A stretch of 64,000 nt of DNA from Bacillota bacterium (GTDB lineage: Bacteria; Bacillota; Negativicutes; DSM-13327): contig JAGFZX010000015.1 in NCBI GenBank assembly GCA_017889585.1, positions 1 through 64,000 of the forward strand, written 5' to 3'. The notes beneath the pieces are model-generated. The model saw nothing but the letters and a program-made list of their open reading frames with translations. It did not search any database and had not been told where the DNA came from. Of this stretch, positions 43,112 to 54,303 are shown piece after piece; positions within the stretch are counted from its first letter, which is position 1, and each line of letters starts with the position of its first letter. Made by a program: the position numbers and the translations under genes.

Positions 43112-43915
43112 TTATTGAATAGCTTGAAAACCATATTTATTAAGCACTGCCATCCCATCAGAACTCGTCAAATATTGCAAAAAGCCTTCTGCTTCCTTAG
43201 GATGCTTCGTACCACAAATAACAGCACCGAGAAATGTGATTGGTTCATGTGTATTTTCCGGGGCTATTGCAACAACTTTTACTTTGTCACTAGCGGCTGC
43301 CACTGTGGAAAATACAATCCCAGCTTCCACATTCCCTGTCTCCACATACGTCAACACTGTATGAATATCTTTGGTCATCACAGCTTTTTCTTGCACTGTT
43401 TCCCATACTTGTAATTTTTCTAATACCTGTTTGGCATATTCCCCAGCTGGCACTGTGTCTGGCATACCCATGCCAAAACGCGTAACATTTGAGTTGGTCA
43501 AATCTTGAAAGCTTTGCAATTCAAGTTTTGAAGCTTTCGGTACAATCAATACCAATTGGTTCCCAACCAAATTCTTACGTGTAGCAGGAATAATTAGATT
43601 CTTTTTCTGCAATGCATCCATTTGTTTATTTGCAGCGGAAATAAACAAATCCGTTGATGCTCCTTGCTCTATTTGGGTTTGCAATGCGCCAGAAGAAGCC
43701 AAGTTATATACAATCTTAATCGGATGATCAGCTTCATATTTTTGTTGAATTTCCAGCAGAGCATCTTTAAGCCCCATGGCTGCCGATACATTTATTTCAA
43801 CTAGCTGAGATTGAGGAGCTACGACCGGTTGCATCTTCCCACATCCAGTAATGAATAAAAAGGTCATGGCGCTTACTACTAAACACATTTTGGCATATAG
43901 GCCATTCATCGACAT
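43112..43915 (-). CDS. ModA-like molybdate/tungstate-binding lipoprotein (orphan)
   Basis: A 267-residue ABC-type binding protein. Lipoprotein signal with lipobox FITGC at residues 21-25. The ModA fold is shown by INVSAAMGLKDALLEIQQKYE, YNLASSGALQTQIEQGASTDLFISAA, DTVPAGEYAKQVLEKL and the VLTYVETGNVEAGIVF hinge strand. AGGGGG lies 7-8 bases before the ATG. It is last in modD-wtpA-modA, with no permease or ATPase. It probably feeds the modBC transporter at 48062-49457 or serves as a sensor. It is clearly paralogous to the modA gene at 47228. Confidence 0.9.
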   Translation of the reverse strand: MSMNGLYAKMCLVVSAMTFLFITGCGKMQPVVAPQSQLVEINVSAAMGLKDALLEIQQKYEADHPIKIVYNLASSGALQTQIEQGASTDLFISAANKQMDALQKKNLIIPATRKNLVGNQLVLIVPKASKLELQSFQDLTNSNVTRFGMGMPDTVPAGEYAKQVLEKLQVWETVQEKAVMTKDIHTVLTYVETGNVEAGIVFSTVAAASDKVKVVAIAPENTHEPITFLGAVICGTKHPKEAEGFLQYLTSSDGMAVLNKYGFQAIQ

Positions 43916-43927
43916 AATATATCCCCC

Positions 43928-44902
43928 TTATTCTTGCAGCCCCTTCACTACATGTTGAAGTTCCATCGGCAGGAAAAGCTTCTCATCTTCTCGAACTTGC
44001 GGTGGATTCATTGGAATAAATCCCGCTTTATTCATATAATCTTGCCCATCAGTCAAAAGAAACTCTAAAAATTCCAACGCTTCTTGACGGTGGGGTGAAT
44101 TATTTACTAAGGTTAAGCCATAAATAATAGGTTGTCCTTTTACCTCCACAAAAGATCCCTCTGCCTTACCAGTAAGTTTTAAAACAGCTTGTTGATAGTA
44201 GTCCGCATACCCTAAAGATGAGAAATCTAGTTGTTCTGGTAACTTCACATAGGAATAACCACCTTGTTTCGCTGAGGATTCATACATAAAGAAATAATCT
44301 AATTGACCAATACGAAGTTTTTCCTGAATTTCTTTCCCATTATTCACAATATTAGTAGGATGAAAATTCTTTTCCAGCCTTTGGTACAAACCAGGCAACT
44401 GGTAATATTTCTCAGCCAACTGCATCGACAAGACAGCCCGATAGCCGCCAGGATCTAAATTGGGATCAGTATGGCCATATTCTACATCAGGTCTAGCTAA
44501 AATCTCATACCAGTTATCCTCGTTAATTTCATCAGCATATTTACTTTTATCAGTATAAACTAAGACAGCCTTGTTCCTTGCAAAAAACACATTAAACTTC
44601 GCAAACTCAGGTTTCATCAAACTATCAATGGTTTCATAGTCGGCCGAAGCAACAATATCACAGGGTCTGTTCATTTCCGTTACTTTACGAGCGGCTTCCC
44701 GGCTTCCGCTTCCTTCCAACACCACCTTAATTTCTGGATGAACAGCCTCAAATGCCTTAGCAATCTTCTGAAAAGGTCCATTTAAACTTCCTGCATGAAA
44801 TACAATCACTTCTGTTTTCTCAGGCATTTCTGCAGCATACCCAACTGGAAGAAATGATAAAGATACACATAAACATAATAAAACTATACTTCTAAAATTC
44901 AT
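43928..44902 (-). CDS. WtpA-like tungstate/molybdate-binding protein (orphan)
   Basis: A 324-residue exported binding protein closest by eye to archaeal-type WtpA/TupA-related tungstate binders: VIVFHAGSLNGPFQKIAKAFE, VVLEGSGSREAARKVTE, DIVASADYETIDSL, FARNKAVLVYTDKSKY, GHTDPNLDPGGYRA and FMYESSAKQGGYSYVKLP. The signal peptide (about 1-23) ends GYAAEMPE without a lipobox. The ATG at 44902 is used since AAAGGGG is 8 bases upstream. It is flanked by modD and the modA-like gene and has no transporter partners of its own in the operon. Confidence 0.85.
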   Translation of the reverse strand: MNFRSIVLLCLCVSLSFLPVGYAAEMPEKTEVIVFHAGSLNGPFQKIAKAFEAVHPEIKVVLEGSGSREAARKVTEMNRPCDIVASADYETIDSLMKPEFAKFNVFFARNKAVLVYTDKSKYADEINEDNWYEILARPDVEYGHTDPNLDPGGYRAVLSMQLAEKYYQLPGLYQRLEKNFHPTNIVNNGKEIQEKLRIGQLDYFFMYESSAKQGGYSYVKLPEQLDFSSLGYADYYQQAVLKLTGKAEGSFVEVKGQPIIYGLTLVNNSPHRQEALEFLEFLLTDGQDYMNKAGFIPMNPPQVREDEKLFLPMELQHVVKGLQE

Positions 44903-44922
44903 AACACTAACCCCTTTCATTC

Positions 44923-45729
44923 TTAAATACCTTCTATTTTACAAGTAAAATCCAATGGAGGAGCATATAAAACAGAACTGAAAACAATCAAATCAACTGT
45001 TTTTGCAAATTCTTTAATATTCCCTCCTTGAATACCTCCCGCTACACCAACCTTTACTTGACTGTTTAACTTTTTTATTTTTTTAACAATCGGAGGCAGC
45101 GCTTCTGCCTCAAAATGATCGAGCAATATAACATCACAAAAACTAGCACATTGATAAGCTTCCTCTTCATTGCGCGGCTCGATTTCAATCTTATGATGAA
45201 AAGATTTTATATCTATCGGCAATTCTCCGAGCATTCGTAGATGATTTTGGGTAATCAGTACTGTATCACTTAAAGAATTGCGATGATACAATCCGCCCCC
45301 ATCCTCTACAGCTTCAATTTCTTCTTGTCGCATTCCTAGATGGGCTTTACGGCAGGCAACAACGATTTCAACATCAGGATTAGCCTCTTTTGCTTCATTC
45401 ACAATTTGTCGTGTCTTAGTCGCAATAGCACAAAGAGTTGTAAGATATGTTTGGCTAATCCTCCACATTTTAAAAAGTATTTTCAAATCACCAACTGCCT
45501 CTATGATCGTATCACCAGATTCTATTAATTCGCCTGGTTTTTGGCAAAACAACACCTCTAGCTTTTGCGATTCAAAAAAATCTCTAAGACGAAACACGCC
45601 AGTAATAACCGCATCTTCCCTAGTTATAAGCTTCATCCTCCCCCCACCTTCAATTTTAAGTAGTTCAGTTGTAATATCTGCGTAAGGACAGTCTTCTTGT
45701 AAACCAAGTTCTAATGGATAAATTTTCAT
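44923..45729 (-). CDS. modD: ModD, quinolinate phosphoribosyltransferase-like protein of Mo transport loci
   Basis: A 268-residue NadC-fold protein. Near-N-terminal EDCPYADITTELL and GGGRMKLITREDAVITGVF, then RISQTYLTTLCAIATKTRQIV, ACRKAHLGMRQEEIEAVEDGGGLYHRNSLSDTVLI, and the barrel end VGVAGGIQGGNIKEFA. The family clusters with molybdate transporters and is called ModD; its reaction is not established, and true NAD synthesis is unlikely here. GGGAGG lies 9 bases before the ATG. Promoter-proximal gene of modD-wtpA-modA, divergent from the regulator at 45922. Confidence 0.85.
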   Translation of the reverse strand: MKIYPLELGLQEDCPYADITTELLKIEGGGRMKLITREDAVITGVFRLRDFFESQKLEVLFCQKPGELIESGDTIIEAVGDLKILFKMWRISQTYLTTLCAIATKTRQIVNEAKEANPDVEIVVACRKAHLGMRQEEIEAVEDGGGLYHRNSLSDTVLITQNHLRMLGELPIDIKSFHHKIEIEPRNEEEAYQCASFCDVILLDHFEAEALPPIVKKIKKLNSQVKVGVAGGIQGGNIKEFAKTVDLIVFSSVLYAPPLDFTCKIEGI

Positions 45730-45921: not shown

Positions 45922-46857
45922 TTGTCTGATACTATATCTTACACCCCGGAAGAAGTAGCAAAACTACTTAAAATTTCACGTTTCACAGTCTATGAATTCA
46001 TCAAACGCGGCGAATTGACCGCCTATCACATCGGACGTAAACTACGTATAGAGGCAGCGGATCTAGACATCTTTATGAAAAAAGCCAAGGGCACAAGCCA
46101 GCCAACCTCTGGCCCTACTCAGCAAATGGCCACTATTCCTATTTCTAGTCAGGATGGCTTGATTATTTACGGGCAAGATGCTGTTCTCGACGTATTAACG
46201 CGGCATCTACAAAGACAGATGCCCTATCTTAGGTTTCTACGTTCCTATAACGGCAGTATGGATGGGCTAATTGCCCTATATCGCGGTACAGCCAACTTGA
46301 TTACAACTCACCTTTGGGATGGTGATACTGAGGAGTATAATACGCCCTATGTTCGTCGCCTACTGCCAGGCCAACGAGCAATCATTATTAATTTAGTGTA
46401 TCGCCAAGCGGGATTTTATGTAGCACCCGGCAACCCCAAGAATATAAAAGACTGGTCAGATTTAATTAAGCCAGATATTCGTTTTATTAACAGAGAGCCA
46501 GGCTCGGGAGCCCGAGTACTGCTTGATGAAAAGCTTCGACAGTTAAATATTGATCCTAGAACCATTCTAAATTACAACCAAGAAGAAACCAGTCATCTCG
46601 CCATCGCCAGCGCAGTCGCTCGTGGAGAGGCTGATGTAGGGGTAGGTATTGAAAAAGCGGCTATGCAAGTTCAAAATGTGGAATTTGTTCCTCTGCAAAA
46701 AGAGCGTTATGACTTAGTACTACTACGTCACGACTTGGACAAACCTCACTTTCAAATCCTGTTATCAATACTACGCTCTCCTGCTTTTCATAAGGAAATA
46801 GATAGTATGGGTGGCTATGATGTATCACGAATGGGTGATATCATGGCACAAGTCTAA
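45922..46857 (+). CDS. HTH plus periplasmic-binding-protein-domain regulator (YvgK-like), probable Mo/W regulator
   Basis: A 311-residue cytoplasmic regulator. The N-terminal excisionase/MerR-type helix-turn-helix (about 5-55) reads YTPEEVAKLLKISRFTVYEFIKRGELTAYHIGRKLRI. The C-terminal PBP-like domain (about 75-305) has LRFLRSYNGSMDGLIALYRG, TTHLWDGDTEEYN, FINREPGSGARVLLDE and ASAVARGEADVGVGIEKAA. The same build is found in Bacillus YvgK next to modAB genes and in related oxyanion regulators. The start is TTG with GAGGTG 8 bases upstream. It stands between modD and modABC and is the best candidate to bind the TTAGTTT-core promoters. Confidence 0.85.
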   Translation: MSDTISYTPEEVAKLLKISRFTVYEFIKRGELTAYHIGRKLRIEAADLDIFMKKAKGTSQPTSGPTQQMATIPISSQDGLIIYGQDAVLDVLTRHLQRQMPYLRFLRSYNGSMDGLIALYRGTANLITTHLWDGDTEEYNTPYVRRLLPGQRAIIINLVYRQAGFYVAPGNPKNIKDWSDLIKPDIRFINREPGSGARVLLDEKLRQLNIDPRTILNYNQEETSHLAIASAVARGEADVGVGIEKAAMQVQNVEFVPLQKERYDLVLLRHDLDKPHFQILLSILRSPAFHKEIDSMGGYDVSRMGDIMAQV

Positions 46858-47140: not shown

Positions 47141-47184
47141 ATCAACTAATCTAGTTCTGTTGAGCTACGTTAGTTGATTTTTTT
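47141..47184 (+). terminator. Terminator-like hairpin in the modA leader (candidate attenuator)
   Basis: ATCAACTAA (47141-47149) pairs with TTAGTTGAT (47170-47178), followed by a run of seven T residues (47178-47184). It lies between the promoter and the modA start (47228) and would stop transcripts unless opened. CCTTTTGT/ACAAGG upstream could form a competing or sensor stem. Confidence 0.55.
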
Positions 47185-47227
47185 CGGAAGTAGTACTCGC
47201 AACATTAAATACTGGAGGGAAAACAAC

Positions 47228-48028
47228 ATGAAGACTCGTTTATTATCTTTTCTGATGACAGTCATTTTAATTACATCACTCATCACAGGTTGCAGCAGCG
47301 AAAAACAAGCTGCTCCAGCCACACAACAACCAAAAGTTGAACTGAACATATCGGCCGCTGTCAGCCTAAAGGATGCACTTGAAGAAATTCAAAAAAATTA
47401 TGAAGCTAAAAATCCCAATATAAAACTAACATATAACCTCGGGGCCTCAGGTGCTCTCCAAAAACAAATTGAGCAAGGCGCTCCCGCTGATATTTTCATG
47501 TCGGCAGCTCCAAAACAAATGAATGATTTAGAAGCAAAAAATCTTATTAATAAGCCTACACGCAAGAACTTGGTTGAAAATAAACTGGTTATTATTGTAC
47601 CAAAAGCATCAAGTATCAATATCTCAAAATATGAAGATTTAACAAAGGATGAAGTCCAAAAATTAAGCATTGGCGAAACAGCATCGGTGCCAGCAGGGCA
47701 ATATGCCCAAGAAGTTCTAAAAAAATTGGGAATCTGGGATAAAATAAAAGATAAAGCCGTGCTCGCGAAAGATGTGCGTACAGTTTTAACCTATGTGGAA
47801 ACAGGCAACGTAGAAGCCGGTATTGTTTACAAAACAGATGCTGCATCCAGTGACAAAGTAAAAATTACAGCTACCGCACCAGAAGGTTCTCACCAGCCCA
47901 TTGTATATCCAGTCGCAGTTTTGTCAGGAACCAAACAACAAAAAACAGCAGAAGATTTCCTTACCTATCTAAATACTCCTGAATGTAAAGCCATCTTTGA
48001 AAAATACGGCTTTACCATGAGTAAATAA
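47228..48028 (+). CDS. modA: Molybdate/tungstate ABC transporter binding lipoprotein
   Basis: A 266-residue lipoprotein (lipobox LITGC around residues 19-23, after LLSFLMTVILITS). ModA motifs: LNISAAVSLKDALEEIQKNYE, YNLGASGALQKQIEQGAPADIFMSAA, ETASVPAGQYAQEVLKKLG and RTVLTYVETGNVEAGIVYKTDA. The ATG at 47228 follows ACTGGAGGG by 8 bases; an earlier in-frame ATG at 47174 lies inside the leader hairpin and is rejected. First gene of modABC, under the shared promoter at 47029. Confidence 0.94.
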   Translation: MKTRLLSFLMTVILITSLITGCSSEKQAAPATQQPKVELNISAAVSLKDALEEIQKNYEAKNPNIKLTYNLGASGALQKQIEQGAPADIFMSAAPKQMNDLEAKNLINKPTRKNLVENKLVIIVPKASSINISKYEDLTKDEVQKLSIGETASVPAGQYAQEVLKKLGIWDKIKDKAVLAKDVRTVLTYVETGNVEAGIVYKTDAASSDKVKITATAPEGSHQPIVYPVAVLSGTKQQKTAEDFLTYLNTPECKAIFEKYGFTMSK

Positions 48029-48061
48029 TATAAATATAATAAGATGGTGCAGGTGAAACTT

Positions 48062-48727
48062 ATGGTCGAATGGCAACCCGTTATTCTCTCAATCAAAGTT
48101 GCATCCATTTCAGTATTGTTTGTATTTTTCCTAGGAATACTAGCGGCTTATGTGATGAGAAGCGTAGATATTCCAGGCAAAGCCGCTTTAGAATCACTTT
48201 TTACTCTGCCATTAGTTTTGCCTCCTGTCGTCATTGGATTTTTACTGTTAATCTTAATCGGCAAACAAGGGCCAGTAGGTATCTTACTGAAAGAATATTT
48301 TGATATGCAAATTATTTTTACCCAATCAGCCGCCGTTCTCGCTGGTATTGTTGTATCCTTTCCACTCATGTATCAAAGTACCAAAGCAGCTTTTGAAAGC
48401 ATCGATAAAACATTAGAAGATGCTGCCCGCACGCTAGGTTCTAGCGAATGGCGGGTATTCTGGACAGTGACCATACCATTATCCTGGCCAGGTCTTGTAT
48501 CCGGTTTGGTGCTCTCCTTTTCAAGGACTTTAGGAGAATTTGGCGCGACGATTATGATTGCCGGTAATATCCCTGGCAAGACACAAACCATTCCATTGGC
48601 AATTTATTTTGCAACAGAATCAAACGACTTGGTAACGGCAGGTATGTATGTAATCATTATCAGTGTAATCACCTTTTCCATTATTTTCGGACTGAACCAT
48701 TGGAAAGGCAAAAAGGCACTTATTTAA
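48062..48727 (+). CDS. modB: Molybdate/tungstate ABC transporter permease
   Basis: A 221-residue inner-membrane permease with about five membrane helices. The ATPase-contact loop is EAARTLG-like: DAARTLGSSEWRVFWTVTIPLSWPGLVSG. The family block RTLGEFGATIMIAGNIPGKTQTIPLAIY is also present, both typical of ModB. The ATG at 48062 has CAGGTG 6 bases upstream; the ATG at 48044 has no ribosome site. Follows modA by 33 bp and precedes modC by 25 bp. Confidence 0.93.
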   Translation: MVEWQPVILSIKVASISVLFVFFLGILAAYVMRSVDIPGKAALESLFTLPLVLPPVVIGFLLLILIGKQGPVGILLKEYFDMQIIFTQSAAVLAGIVVSFPLMYQSTKAAFESIDKTLEDAARTLGSSEWRVFWTVTIPLSWPGLVSGLVLSFSRTLGEFGATIMIAGNIPGKTQTIPLAIYFATESNDLVTAGMYVIIISVITFSIIFGLNHWKGKKALI

Positions 48728-48752
48728 ACTGCAACAAGGAAGGAGTAGCACA

Positions 48753-49457
48753 ATGTTAACAGTAGATATTAAAAAAAAATTATCTGATTTTACCCTAAAT
48801 ATCTCATTTACTGCTCCGAATAAAACCCTTGTTTTATTCGGTCCTTCTGGGTGCGGTAAAACTACGATATTGCGTTGTATCGCAGGTCTACTTAAACCAG
48901 ATGAAGGTAGCATTGTATCCAATGGAACAGTTTTCTACTCTTCACAAAATACTACTCATTTACCGCCTAGAACGAGAAATGTCAGTTATATGTTTCAGGA
49001 CTTTGCACTGTTTCCTCACATGAATGTAAAGCATAATATTTGGTATGGGGTTAAAACTCTTAACCAACAAGCCAATGAATTATATGAAAAACTCATTACC
49101 TTATTAAAAATTGAACACTTACCACATCGCAGGATAAACCAATTGTCTGGTGGCGAAAAGCAACGCGTAGCTATGGCTCGTGCATTAATGGCTGAGCCTC
49201 AGATCCTTTTACTAGACGAACCCTTATCTGCACTAGATGCCCAAAGTCGCTACGAATTGCAAGACGAACTAAAAAAACTGCAAGAAATTTGGAACATCCC
49301 ATTCGTTCTTGTTACCCATTCACCGGAAGAAGCCCAAGCACTAGGTAGTGAAGTAGTATTTCTCCATCAAGGACAACAAGTAGCTGAGCCACCACCATCC
49401 TGGAACATGAACGCGAATGGCACAACGACTAGAAGCTCTTTTCAATACTTTTATTAG
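48753..49457 (+). CDS. modC: Molybdate/tungstate ABC transporter ATPase (short form, no TOBE domain)
   Basis: A 234-residue ABC ATPase: Walker A FGPSGCGKTT near residue 30, LFGPS context and PPRTRNVSYMFQDFALFPHMNV as Q-loop. The signature is INQLSGGEKQRVAMARALMAEP and the Walker B is ILLLDEPLSALD, with LVTHSPEEA as H-loop. It stops about 120 residues short of classical ModC, so the C-terminal TOBE/Mop oxyanion-sensing domain is absent. A separate Mop protein is encoded at 55800. AAGGAGG lies 8 bases before the ATG. Last gene of modABC. Confidence 0.93.
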   Translation: MLTVDIKKKLSDFTLNISFTAPNKTLVLFGPSGCGKTTILRCIAGLLKPDEGSIVSNGTVFYSSQNTTHLPPRTRNVSYMFQDFALFPHMNVKHNIWYGVKTLNQQANELYEKLITLLKIEHLPHRRINQLSGGEKQRVAMARALMAEPQILLLDEPLSALDAQSRYELQDELKKLQEIWNIPFVLVTHSPEEAQALGSEVVFLHQGQQVAEPPPSWNMNANGTTTRSSFQYFY

Positions 49458-49477: not shown

Positions 49478-49528
49478 CAATAAGCATGGGTCTTGCAATT
49501 ATAACTATTGCAAGACCCATGCTTATTG
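49478..49528. terminator. Bidirectional terminator between modC and the GGDEF/HD-GYP/ModA gene
   Basis: A 22-bp perfect stem (CAATAAGCATGGGTCTTGCA and its complement plus two further pairs) with a 7-base loop ends the convergent modABC and minus-strand signalling operons. Confidence 0.9.
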
Positions 49529-49570: not shown

Positions 49571-51724
49571 CTAACAAACTACAAAGCCATGTCTTTCAAA
49601 AATCATTCTCGCCTTATTACTTGAAAGAAATTTCACAAATTCTTTTCCGTCTTCTATGTTCGTGTTGTTTTTGAGTATAGCGATCGGATATACAACTGGA
49701 GAATAAGCTTTAAAGGGTACTACTTGGTCGATAATTTTTACTTTGTCTGAGGTCTTTGCATCGGTCCGATATACAATACCTACATCAATATTCCCTGTTT
49801 CAACAAACTTCAAAGCCTGACGAACATCTTTGGCAAAAACCAACTTAGATTTAACTTTCTCCAGAATTTCTAATGACATCAGTATATCTCGGGCATATTT
49901 CCCCGCAGGTACAGTATTGGGATCACCAATAGCTATCTTATTAATTTTTTCTCCTGCCAAATCTTCAAACTCACAAACAACGCTTGAATTCTTCGACGTG
50001 ATCAGGACAATTTCGTTTTCCAATAGCTTCTTCCTAGTTTCATCAATTAATAAATCCTTCTTTTGCAATTCATCCATCTGCCCTAGTGCCGCCGGAATAA
50101 AGATATCAGCCAGTGCACCATCCTCAATGTGTTGTTTTAACTCGCCAGAACCACCGAAGCGAAACACAATATTTTTTTGAGGATTATCTTTCATATACGC
50201 TTGTTCAATTTCGAGCATCACATCCTTAGCACTGATGGCTACGTATATTTTTATTGCCACGAGAATCCGTCTAAATTCAGAAACCAGTACTGGATCAAAC
50301 TGTATTCCCGCACCATTTTCCAGTTCAGCGAGTGCTTTTTCTTGGGACATGCCTTTGCGATAAGGGCGGTCATTTGTCATAGCGTCATACGCATCAACAA
50401 TAGCAAGGATACGACACTCGAGTGGAATGTTTTCTCCTTTTATGCCTTTAGGATAACCACACCCATTCCACCACTCATGATGCTTTAATATCCAGTTAGC
50501 TATATGGGCAAGGTCTGGCGATGACACGGCTATGCATTGTCCTATTTCGCAGTGTTTTTGCATTTCTTTTCTTTCTTCAGAAGTAAGGGGGCCTTGTTTT
50601 AGCAGCACTTTATCTGAAATACCCACCTTTCCTATATCATGAAATTCTGCTAATAACATTAACTCATTTACTTTTTCTTCCGATAATCCCAGTGAAAATG
50701 CCATCAGTTCCACCAGGATTTTTAAACGCTCACAGTGACCTTCAGTAATGAAATCCCTTGCTCCGATCATGCGCATAATTGTGTTAATAGCAGCTCTCCT
50801 ACTACTACTCTTTTGTTGTAACTTTTCTTTGTACATATTACGATCTGCTTTTTTGAATAAGCTGGTAATATTGGCGGATAACTTATTGTCAACAGTATAC
50901 CCAAGGGAAACACTTAAAAGTAGTCCGGATTTATTTTCATTATACTTTGATATATTATCCCTAATTCGCAGACATGCTTCCCTTAACGAATGAGAAGAGC
51001 TCCTGGGAAGCAAAACAGCAAACTCATCACCACCAATTCTAGCCACTATATCTTCTTTGCGGAAACTTTGTTTTAGTATATTCGCTACTGCAATGATCAT
51101 ATTATCGCCGACTCTATGCCCCAATGTATCATTGATAATCTTTAGCCCATCAATATCACATATAATTAAACCAACAGGAGCATATTGTTGTCCTCTTATA
51201 TTTAAAAATTCATTTTCGAAACAAGTGCGATTCGATAAACCAGTTAGAATATCATGCATACTTGTGTATATCAATTGTTTTTCCAGGCGCCTTTCTTCTG
51301 TCATATCATAGAAAACAATGACGAACCCTAAAATATAATTGGTATCATCTACAATCTGTGAAATTGATCCATCAACAAAAATTTTTTCGAAATTTTTTTT
51401 TACCAACAATGTACCTTTGCCAAACTTAATATATACATCGTGTTTAATCTTACCAACTGGAAACTCAATAAGCTTACCCGTTGCTTTATCTATTATTTCG
51501 AATAATTCTATTACGGTTGTCCTCAAGACCTCTATTTGTGAATAACCTGTAAGTTTTTCAGCCGTACTGTTCATAAATAATATATTGGCATTGAAATCAG
51601 TAATTATTACGGCCTCTCTAATACTTGATGGTACAAATTGAAGCATTTCATCTAACTCATTGAACTTTTCCATACGCCAGGTCGTTGCAATGATTGGTGA
51701 TCTCTTGAGATAAGACGTAGCCAT
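49571..51724 (-). CDS. PAS-GGDEF-HD-GYP protein fused to a C-terminal ModA-like oxyanion-binding domain
   Basis: A 717-residue soluble signalling protein; no membrane segment or signal is visible. A PAS-like domain covers about 25-145. The GGDEF diguanylate cyclase domain (about 150-305) has an intact GGDEF at 231-235 and the inhibitory site R222-K-E-D225 exactly five residues before it. The HD-GYP domain (about 315-490) has H362-D363, HH at 415-416 and GYP at 423-425. From about 493 to the end the sequence is a ModA binding protein without its signal: IYVAISAKDVMLEIEQAY, FGGSGELKQHIEDGALADIFIP, NTVPAGKYARDIL, FVETGNIDVGIVYRTDA. It should couple cytoplasmic molybdate or tungstate to cyclic-di-GMP synthesis or breakdown. 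Last gene of the operon starting at 54303. Confidence 0.93.
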   Translation of the reverse strand: MATSYLKRSPIIATTWRMEKFNELDEMLQFVPSSIREAVIITDFNANILFMNSTAEKLTGYSQIEVLRTTVIELFEIIDKATGKLIEFPVGKIKHDVYIKFGKGTLLVKKNFEKIFVDGSISQIVDDTNYILGFVIVFYDMTEERRLEKQLIYTSMHDILTGLSNRTCFENEFLNIRGQQYAPVGLIICDIDGLKIINDTLGHRVGDNMIIAVANILKQSFRKEDIVARIGGDEFAVLLPRSSSHSLREACLRIRDNISKYNENKSGLLLSVSLGYTVDNKLSANITSLFKKADRNMYKEKLQQKSSSRRAAINTIMRMIGARDFITEGHCERLKILVELMAFSLGLSEEKVNELMLLAEFHDIGKVGISDKVLLKQGPLTSEERKEMQKHCEIGQCIAVSSPDLAHIANWILKHHEWWNGCGYPKGIKGENIPLECRILAIVDAYDAMTNDRPYRKGMSQEKALAELENGAGIQFDPVLVSEFRRILVAIKIYVAISAKDVMLEIEQAYMKDNPQKNIVFRFGGSGELKQHIEDGALADIFIPAALGQMDELQKKDLLIDETRKKLLENEIVLITSKNSSVVCEFEDLAGEKINKIAIGDPNTVPAGKYARDILMSLEILEKVKSKLVFAKDVRQALKFVETGNIDVGIVYRTDAKTSDKVKIIDQVVPFKAYSPVVYPIAILKNNTNIEDGKEFVKFLSSNKARMIFERHGFVVC

Positions 51725-51759
51725 AATACCCCTCCCGGAGAATGATTGATTGAATTTAT

Positions 51760-53484
51760 TTACACGAGAAACTTAGCAACAGATTCTTTCAGATGATTCG
51801 CCATTGCACTTGTTTCTTCCGCACTAGCTGCCACTGTTTGCATAGCGGCCGATTGTTCCTCCGATGAAGCCGCAACTTCTTCACCATGTGCTGCAACAGT
51901 TTCAATAACTGTCGCAAGATGGTCAATCAATTTTACAATTTGTTCCGAATTGGCAACTTCCTCAGAGGCTAAATCACCAATCTCCCTGGTTTCAGCAACA
52001 GTCTGCGTTACGGCCTGTAAAATTCCATCTAAAGCTAATCCTGCTTCATTGACCGTAGCTACACCATATTCAACTTCTGAAACATTTTGCGCCATTGCCA
52101 ATACTGCCACATTCGTTTTCTCAGTAACCCGTTTCACTAGAGCTGTGATCTCTTGAGCTCCCCGATCAGATTGCTCAGCCAACTTACGTACTTCTTCCGC
52201 TACAACTGCAAAACCACGCCCATTTTCTCCAGCCCGCGCAGCCTCAATAGCCGCATTAAGTGCCAAAAGGTTGGTTTGTTTAGCCAAACTCGTTATGGTA
52301 TCTGTAATGCGGGATATTTGCTTGGAATAATCATTAAGCTCACCAATGATCTGACTAGAATGTTCTGCCTGCCGTTTAATATTACCCATTTTGCTAACCG
52401 ATTCATCAACCTTAAGTCGCCCGTTTTCCGCGGACAGCAACGTGTTTTCTGAGTTTTCACAAGTATGATTAGTCCTTGCTTTGGCCATTTGTATCAGACT
52501 CGCTAACTGCACTAATGCTTGAGCTGCTTCTAGCATAGATTTATTTCCTAAGTCCGCCTCCTTGGATAAGTTTTGCATATTATTCGAAATTTCTCCGCTT
52601 GTTGCGGTCACTTGTTCTGTTGATGCCGCCATTTCTTCCGAAGCCCTAGCTAAATGTCCGGAAACCGACCGAATATTAGTAATCATCTCTACAAAGTTCT
52701 TATGCATAGTTCGTAGCGAATCAGCTAGCACTCCTATTTCATCCCCAGTTTTTACTTTGACCTTATTCCGCAAATCTCCATTTGCATATTGATTGGCAAT
52801 GGCAGTAAGTTCTCCAACAGGCTTACGAATCATATTAGTCAGAATAACTGCGATCGTTATGCCCAATAGTAATACCAGTAAACTGATAACTGATGAAATC
52901 GTCATTACATTATTGGCCGTGATGATACTCTCTTGTATCAATCCTTTTGCTAAATCAACATTGCCCTTAGCAAAAATATTTATTGTTTTTTCAATCCCTG
53001 CTGTTTGCGGCGCAAGCGTAGCTGCAAGTTGGGTTAACCTTATCTTACAATCTTGTGCTTTCACAAAATTCCCCATTGCCAACTCCGCATTATATTCTCT
53101 GGCAATTGGCAAATATTCTGTCATAACAACATTTTTATTTTTTATAGTTTCATCAATCAATACTTGTACTTCTGACCGTTTTTCCACCCGGGCAAGTTCC
53201 AGCAATTCTTTCTCTAGAGCTAAAACTTGATTAAAACTGTTCTCAATCTTGCTGATCTTAGTTTCGTCCCCATATGCAATATAAGAACGAACTTCTGAAA
53301 CATTCCCTTTGAATTCAATGACAAGTTCCTCTGCAAGTGCCATACGAATATTTGACTCATTTATTTTGACCAAATCTTCATTTGCATTTCGGAGGGAAAT
53401 AAGAGAATTCATTGCCATAACCATGATCAGAGCAATAATCACTCCGAAACTTAAAAAAATTTTAGTACCTATCTTCATCTTCAT
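51760..53484 (-). CDS. Methyl-accepting chemotaxis protein
   Basis: A 574-residue chemoreceptor. Membrane helix at about 7-27, a four-helix-bundle sensor outside (about 28-185), second helix (about 186-208), HAMP (about 209-262) and the cytoplasmic signalling coiled coil. The CheA/CheW-binding tip reads [40 protein letters not shown], and methylation-type helices flank it. The ligand cannot be read. Placed 35 bp before the GGDEF/HD-GYP/ModA gene and after STAS and RsbW-like genes, it may share an input with them. The ribosome site (GGTG) is weak. Confidence 0.93.
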
Positions 53485-53575
53485 TTTTATGTCACCATCT
53501 TTATATTATATTTAACTTAACAGATGACAATTCCCATAGTCGAGATATCGTTCTCCTCACCTTATTCCTTTAAAG

Positions 53576-53878
53576 TTATTGCATTACAAATACTTTATTT
53601 AATCTTGTTAATTCGAACAACTCTTTCACAAGGCTAGTTGCACCAACAAGGGTTATCCCCCCATTCATTTTCAATGCCCTTTTTTGTATAGCTACAAACA
53701 CCCCCAGCCCTGAGCTGTCAATATAATCAACATTATTGAGTTTAATTATAAATTGTTTATGACCTGATTCCATAAAAGCAATCAGCTTTTCTCGAAGAAC
53801 AGCTGCTTCTTCAACATACATACTACCCCATAAAGTCACCGTAACTTGTCCGTTATTAATAACAGTATCAATCTCCAT
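53576..53878 (-). CDS. STAS-domain anti-sigma-factor-antagonist-like protein
   Basis: A 100-residue single STAS domain. The phosphorylatable serine lies in the conserved NVDYIDSSGLGVFVAIQ segment (about residues 50-65). It is the probable partner of the RsbW-like kinase encoded just upstream, in the manner of RsbV/RsbW or of STAS proteins acting on chemotaxis and cyclic-di-GMP pathways. AAGGAG lies 9 bases before the ATG. Confidence 0.9.
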   Translation of the reverse strand: MEIDTVINNGQVTVTLWGSMYVEEAAVLREKLIAFMESGHKQFIIKLNNVDYIDSSGLGVFVAIQKRALKMNGGITLVGATSLVKELFELTRLNKVFVMQ

Positions 53879-53925
53879 GCTAATGATCTCCTTTCAATCC
53901 AATACAACTATATCTAGCCACCATT

Positions 53926-54303
53926 CTAAGCAACCTTAGTTTTTTTAATCAGCGTTATTTCATTTCCCATCTTATTAAGTCTATACGAGTCCACACAATG
54001 TTGTATAATTGCAAAGCCCCGTCCATGTTCTTCCAGCCAATCGCTTGTATTAGGTATTTCCCGATTCAAAAACCCCCTACCCTCATCACGAATGACAATT
54101 TTAATCCCATTGGGCATTTTTTCTATAATTAGATATACGTTTTTGCTATTATCTTCTTTATTGCCGTGAAAAATTGCATTATTAACACTTTCATTGATAG
54201 CAATAAATACAGCCAGAGCATCTTTCCCACAATTTTTCATTAAACCTTCTTTAATAGATTCTCGTAAAATAGAAAATTCCGCTAGCGAGGAAAAACAATA
54301 CAT
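53926..54303 (-). CDS. RsbW-like serine/threonine kinase (anti-sigma type ATPase)
   Basis: A 125-residue GHKL ATPase: N-box FIAINESVNNAIFHGN, G1 IRDEGRGF and G2 EHGRGFAIIQHCVDSY. It should phosphorylate the STAS protein that follows after 47 bp. No sigma factor is encoded nearby, so the pair may control another target, possibly the chemoreceptor or the cyclic-di-GMP protein of the same operon. GGAGGTG stands 6 bases before the ATG. First gene of the signalling operon. Confidence 0.88.
   Translation of the reverse strand: MYCFSSLAEFSILRESIKEGLMKNCGKDALAVFIAINESVNNAIFHGNKEDNSKNVYLIIEKMPNGIKIVIRDEGRGFLNREIPNTSDWLEEHGRGFAIIQHCVDSYRLNKMGNEITLIKKTKVA

Follow-up and report, generated by a model that had tools for sequence, protein, structure and literature searches.

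Sensors of the RmcA type signal through the membrane, and ModE and the Mop/TOBE proteins are cytoplasmic Mo/W regulators. A 2022 review describes the binding-protein domains of c-di-GMP enzymes as periplasmic and SBP_bac_3 as the only one of them that has been studied (PMC8846402). We analyzed a stretch of 64,000 nucleotides, referred to here as the window (Bacillota bacterium [Negativicutes; DSM-13327], GCA_017889585.1, contig JAGFZX010000015.1, positions 1-64,000, forward strand), which carries a gene for a PAS-GGDEF-HD-GYP protein ending in a ModA domain. Like RmcA of Pseudomonas aeruginosa and other SBP_bac_3 c-di-GMP enzymes, this fusion places a putative sensor with a binding-protein fold on c-di-GMP turnover; the RmcA-type sensor, however, is periplasmic (PMC8846402), whereas that of the fusion is C-terminal, of the ModA type, and predicted to be cytoplasmic. 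With DgcZ of E. coli, a zinc-sensing diguanylate cyclase (cited in PMC8846402), the fusion would share a cytoplasmic metal input to c-di-GMP, but DgcZ senses zinc through a CZB domain and has no binding-protein fold. The intracellular sensing of an oxyanion proposed here is also found in the cytoplasmic Mo/W regulators (HTH + PBP_like [PF12727], ModE, and Mop/TOBE proteins), whose output is DNA binding rather than second-messenger turnover.

As to the enzymatic part, the fusion has the PAS-GGDEF order, the intact cyclase motif, and the HD-GYP metal residues of PAS-GGDEF-HD-GYP and GGDEF-HD-GYP hybrids, and the first two features are also common to PAS-GGDEF-EAL structures such as PA0861 (5xgb). 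None of the hybrid PAS-GGDEF enzymes was found to carry a C-terminal ModA, which the fusion has. Compared with exported ModA (TIGR01256; Clostridioides difficile 4kd5, Klebsiella pneumoniae 8k8k, E. coli 1amf/1wod), the fused domain has the same fold, length, and five contacts, but it lacks a signal peptide or lipobox, stands behind an HD-GYP domain, belongs to a separate clade, and is not encoded as a subunit of a transporter. Binding-protein domains on c-di-GMP enzymes are already common; what is unusual here is a cytoplasmic ModA-type sensor on a one-component enzyme. The titles and abstracts that were searched contained no paper tying ModA, molybdate, or tungstate to an HD-GYP/GGDEF protein as a sensor, and within that literature the view of the first-pass annotation that no characterized protein has this domain order still stands.

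Domain organization and catalytic motifs

The fusion gene (49571-51724, minus strand) is a single open frame of 717 residues with zero internal stops, beginning with an ATG preceded by a strong ribosome-binding site (GGGAGGGG at 51729-51736, minus strand, then TATT), as read from the sequence. The frame lies exactly where the first-pass annotation had placed a PAS-GGDEF-HD-GYP protein with a C-terminal ModA, and Pfam and NCBIfam matches were obtained for all of these domains, each encoded on the minus strand: PAS (residues 33-143, 51296-51628; PF00989/PF13426, E 2.6e-7 over residues 33-134), GGDEF (residues 156-305, 50810-51259; PF00990, E 3.9e-36), HD-GYP phosphodiesterase (residues 316-479, 50288-50779; PF13487 [HD_5], E 1e-33, and alignment to 4mcw), and ModA (residues 491-714, 49583-50254; SBP_bac_11, E 2.5e-52, with further support from TIGR01256, PDB alignment, and AF2 plus Foldseek). 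Hardly any linker separates the last two domains: the HD-GYP part extends to about residue 489, and ModA opens with its strand 1 at residue 491 (Pfam, alignment, and AF2 model).

The catalytic motifs of both the GGDEF and the HD-GYP domain are intact in the window fusion, from which the two enzyme activities are predicted. The GGDEF motif (231-235) and D190, N198, and D207 are invariant in all three aligned fusions, i.e., that of the window and two from Sporomusa described below. The HD, HH, and GYP signatures claimed earlier were located at residues 362-363, 415-416, and 423-425, and alignment to 4mcw gave the residues H330, H362, D363, H391, H415, H416, and D444 in addition to GYP. Where 4mcw has its third-metal Glu, the window fusion has Ile326, and therefore a two-metal site would be expected. 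The inhibitory site attributed to the GGDEF domain fared less uniformly: an RxxD is present in the window copy (R222-K-E-D225, five residues ahead of GGDEF), but it is replaced by HxxD in both Sporomusa fusions, so that product inhibition appears to be no fixed part of the fusion design.

Distribution of the fusion

End-to-end homologues, with 61-62% identity over the full length and 65% over HD-GYP plus ModA, were found in Sporomusa ovata DSM 2662 and Sporomusa sp. KB1. These were the only two genomes with the same fusion among 150 related genomes searched, and they represent two of the nine Sporomusa genomes; the contig scan that named them used two exact peptide patterns and detects close relatives only. 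There was no match in the one other genome of the genus of the window or in the eight sister-genus genomes sampled. Viral contigs likewise contained no further fusion, nor did the 398 phylum genomes searched at E <= 1e-80, a threshold that a more diverged fusion could escape, and no plasmid record covered 80% of HD-GYP plus ModA. Across 300 genomes of the class that were surveyed for ModA, the two Sporomusa frames were the only ones of >700 residues among the matches listed. The architecture is thus rare and patchy, with three species found.

The fused ModA domain and its origin

The first-pass annotation had called the C-terminal part a full ModA-like domain, which profile and contact residues both bear out. 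The TIGR01256 modA model matched residues 498-713 with 194.8 bits against a cutoff of 62.5 (NCBIfam), over positions 3-217 of its 217. The oxyanion contacts listed for perrhenate-bound ModA structures are Ser12, Ser39, Ala125, Val152, and Tyr170 (PMC8895017). Mapped by PDB alignment through K. pneumoniae ModA 8k8k (numbering, precursor number minus 24), they correspond to S498, S526, A607, V634, and Y652, so that all five oxyanion-ligand positions are kept, and they are invariant in the three fusions. Their pocket neighbors Ile497 and Ala499 of the window fusion stand where ModA has Ala/Val and Leu. On these residues, the fused domain looks functional and is predicted to bind molybdate or tungstate.

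The AF2 model of the fused domain (mean pLDDT, 93.7) superposed on C. difficile ModA 4kd5 with a TM score of 0.93 and on Klebsiella ModA with 0.89 (Foldseek). Its rmsd was 1.5-2.4 to 4kd5 and 8k8k versus about 4.6 to several other ligand-bound structures, and this better fit suggests that the model represents the open form; the molybdate-soaked 8k8l fits it equally as well as 8k8k. A model of the full-length fusion (pTM, 0.47) was set aside for domain contacts, because its alignment had the exported-ModA rows out of place over their first 13 residues, which spoiled ModA strand 1 (491-497).

The fused domain had been said to closely track the two exported ModAs of the window, but its identity to them is just 43% and 39%. 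In a tree of 39 ModAs that included the three fused domains and both exported ModAs of the window, the fused ones formed a single clade (support, 100/100) apart from the two exported ones. The domain is therefore old and no local duplicate, and an origin by duplication of the neighboring modA was rejected; most likely, as judged from the tree, the fusion arose once and without copying the local modA. The branches of the fused ModAs are long, their divergence having been faster than that of exported ModA.

Molybdenum and tungsten genes next to the fusion

A molybdate transporter operon, modA1-modB-modC (47174-49457, plus strand; modA1 by Pfam/NCBIfam, modB and modC by ORF reading), is convergent with the fusion gene in the window. 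Between modC and the fusion lies a 20-pair hairpin (49480-49526), likely a bidirectional terminator. The modABC gene order is kept in sister genomes, which share this mod cluster but not the fusion. Further from the fusion are genes for a modD/nadC-like protein, a WtpA-like tungstate-binding protein, and the second exported ModA, ModA2 (together 43112-45729, minus strand; Pfam/NCBIfam). In ModA2 itself (43112-43915, minus strand), Ser12, Val152, and Tyr170 are replaced by Gly, Ile, and Phe, respectively; with these three contacts lost, its ligand may be a different one, or it may have none. Adjoining modABC, an excisionase-type HTH_17 + PBP_like (PF12727) cytoplasmic regulator (45922-46857, plus strand; Pfam/NCBIfam), with a putative role in controlling the mod cluster, is a second candidate Mo/W sensor with a binding-protein fold inside the cell.

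The AOR (aldehyde:ferredoxin oxidoreductase) family is known for tungsten enzymes. In both Sporomusa genomes, the fusion gene adjoins a MarR gene and a divergent AOR gene, a context common to two related species that we count once and not as two independent cases. The leader of the fusion-adjacent AOR gene contains a Moco/Tuco RNA (L040, 2281-2388, minus strand; L039, 2401-2508, minus strand), with a score of 36.9 bits in S. ovata, which exceeds the gathering score, and of 31.2 bits in KB1, which falls just short of it. The P3 stem is missing, as examined in the S. ovata copy, and this P3-less form has been linked to the tungsten cofactor (PMC2408646). Two different neighborhoods, modABC in the window and a riboswitch-led AOR gene in Sporomusa, thus point to Mo/W. 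Tungstate raises several AOR transcripts in S. ovata and strongly raises its ethanol output (PMC4973070). The fusion-adjacent AOR was also considered as the tungstate-induced aor4 of S. ovata; neither this match nor one to another of the measured AORs could be made, as the contig carries a second AOR.

Proposed function and competing explanations

We consider it rather probable, from the domain content and the neighboring genes, that the fusion is a soluble one-component sensor that would connect the cytoplasmic molybdate/tungstate pool to c-di-GMP turnover, in line with the molybdate/tungstate-responsive switch suggested by the first-pass annotation. The broader proposition is, in our estimate, evenly balanced: in it, a binding protein of the transport type has been taken into the cytoplasm to serve as an allosteric domain, the fusion would be the first among c-di-GMP enzymes to be under direct gating by that pool, and W/Mo supply for acetogenic metabolism would be linked to c-di-GMP-controlled behavior. 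If true, c-di-GMP signaling would receive a molybdate/tungstate input directly from within the cell, and a solute-binding protein of the periplasmic type would have become an allosteric part of a second-messenger enzyme in the cytoplasm. The same rare fusion in two Sporomusa species suggests that lifestyle decisions may be under the direct influence of the cellular molybdate/tungstate supply. Since one homologue belongs to S. ovata, a cultured electrosynthesis organism with a tungstate response, the idea is testable in a cultured strain.

Mechanistically, molybdate or tungstate imported by the neighboring transporters would be bound in the ModA cleft, and the closure of the ModA lobes would pull on helix 478-489 and shift the HD-GYP domain. 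Because there is almost no linker before ModA, lobe closure could act directly on this last HD-GYP helix. The HD-GYP shift may in turn activate or inactivate the GGDEF dimer. As ModA is directly behind HD-GYP, the phosphodiesterase would be the likelier direct target, and the likeliest outcome would be that ModA controls how c-di-GMP is hydrolyzed; GGDEF would then be either a second output or a GTP-sensing partner, and PAS probably a second input. The sign of the ligand effect on c-di-GMP is not predictable from the sequence. A change in c-di-GMP would then adjust behavior; c-di-GMP-I riboswitches occur in all three fusion-bearing genomes (6, 10, and 14), and therefore c-di-GMP is in use there.

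An explanation that we regard as unlikely, but deserving of real weight, is that the ModA domain is no longer a ligand switch and persists as a docking platform or a relic, leaving the enzyme under PAS control alone. Between the two Sporomusa copies, the dN/dS of the ModA part was 0.29 versus 0.125-0.19 for the other domains, which indicates a looser constraint on ModA; the distribution of the fusion is patchy, and many PAS-GGDEF-HD-GYP paralogues in the genome of the window manage without ModA. The same dN/dS value is, however, still well under 1 and thus speaks for purifying selection, and the fusions, which have diverged by about 42% in sequence, all retain the five contact residues amid altered surroundings. 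That the domain binds and reports a different oxyanion (sulfate, chromate, vanadate, phosphate, or similar) seems to us quite improbable. Such a change would suit the separate, fast-evolving clade and the slight differences at Ile497 and Ala499, and ModA-type proteins do take other tetrahedral oxyanions, an example being the PDB structure of P. aeruginosa ModA with chromate bound. Yet the complete group-VI contact set is retained, the modA equivalog model is exceeded by a wide margin, and Mo/W genes adjoin the fusion in both lineages, all of which argue for molybdate or tungstate as the ligand.

Cell location and integrity of the gene

Cytoplasmic placement of the fusion, which the first-pass annotation had deduced from the lack of a visible membrane helix, agrees with our analysis. 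In 19-residue hydropathy windows, none reached the usual membrane level, the maximum being 1.59 compared with 2.05 for the exported ModA1, and neither a signal peptide nor a hydrophobic N terminus or lipoprotein anchor was found in the protein. The fusion thus differs from a ModA transport subunit in having no export signal and in carrying the domain C-terminal to cytoplasmic enzymes, and from the RmcA type, where an outside sensor is joined via a transmembrane helix, in having no membrane segment. It is very unlikely that a membrane helix where HD-GYP meets ModA places the ModA domain outside, even though no window of the protein is more hydrophobic than the one at this junction (479-497). 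This window contains two Arg, one Lys, and one Glu; it is made of the last HD-GYP helix and ModA strand 1 (491-496), each required by its own fold; and the hydrophobicity maximum of both Sporomusa homologues falls within ModA, not at the junction. We therefore rejected a membrane-spanning design.

An assembly or frameshift artefact fusing two adjacent genes, a conceivable error in a draft genome of 134 contigs (84% complete, 5.4% contamination), has a negligible probability and was rejected because the same full-length fusion, with identical domain order and junction, is present in the independently sequenced genomes of S. ovata and Sporomusa sp. KB1.

Probable operon and riboswitch content

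In the window, the genes ahead of the fusion (51760-54303, minus strand) are, in order, those for an RsbW-like kinase, a STAS anti-sigma antagonist (both within 53576-54303), and a methyl-accepting chemotaxis protein (51760-53484), the last separated from the fusion by a 35-bp gap; all three are probable operon partners of the fusion. Elsewhere, this operon is conserved in a form in which a gene for a PAS-PP2C-like phosphatase, identified by reading the sequence, stands between the STAS and chemoreceptor genes (L106, 8437-12002; L109, 6518-10158). The window copy is without it and has the fusion gene after the chemoreceptor instead. No Moco/Tuco riboswitch was found in the 84% complete draft genome of the window, compared with 17 matches in one Sporomusa genome and 11 in the other. 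At one S. ovata site (L096, 1501-1763, minus strand), a Moco/Tuco RNA and a ZTP riboswitch are arranged in tandem, about 60 bases apart.
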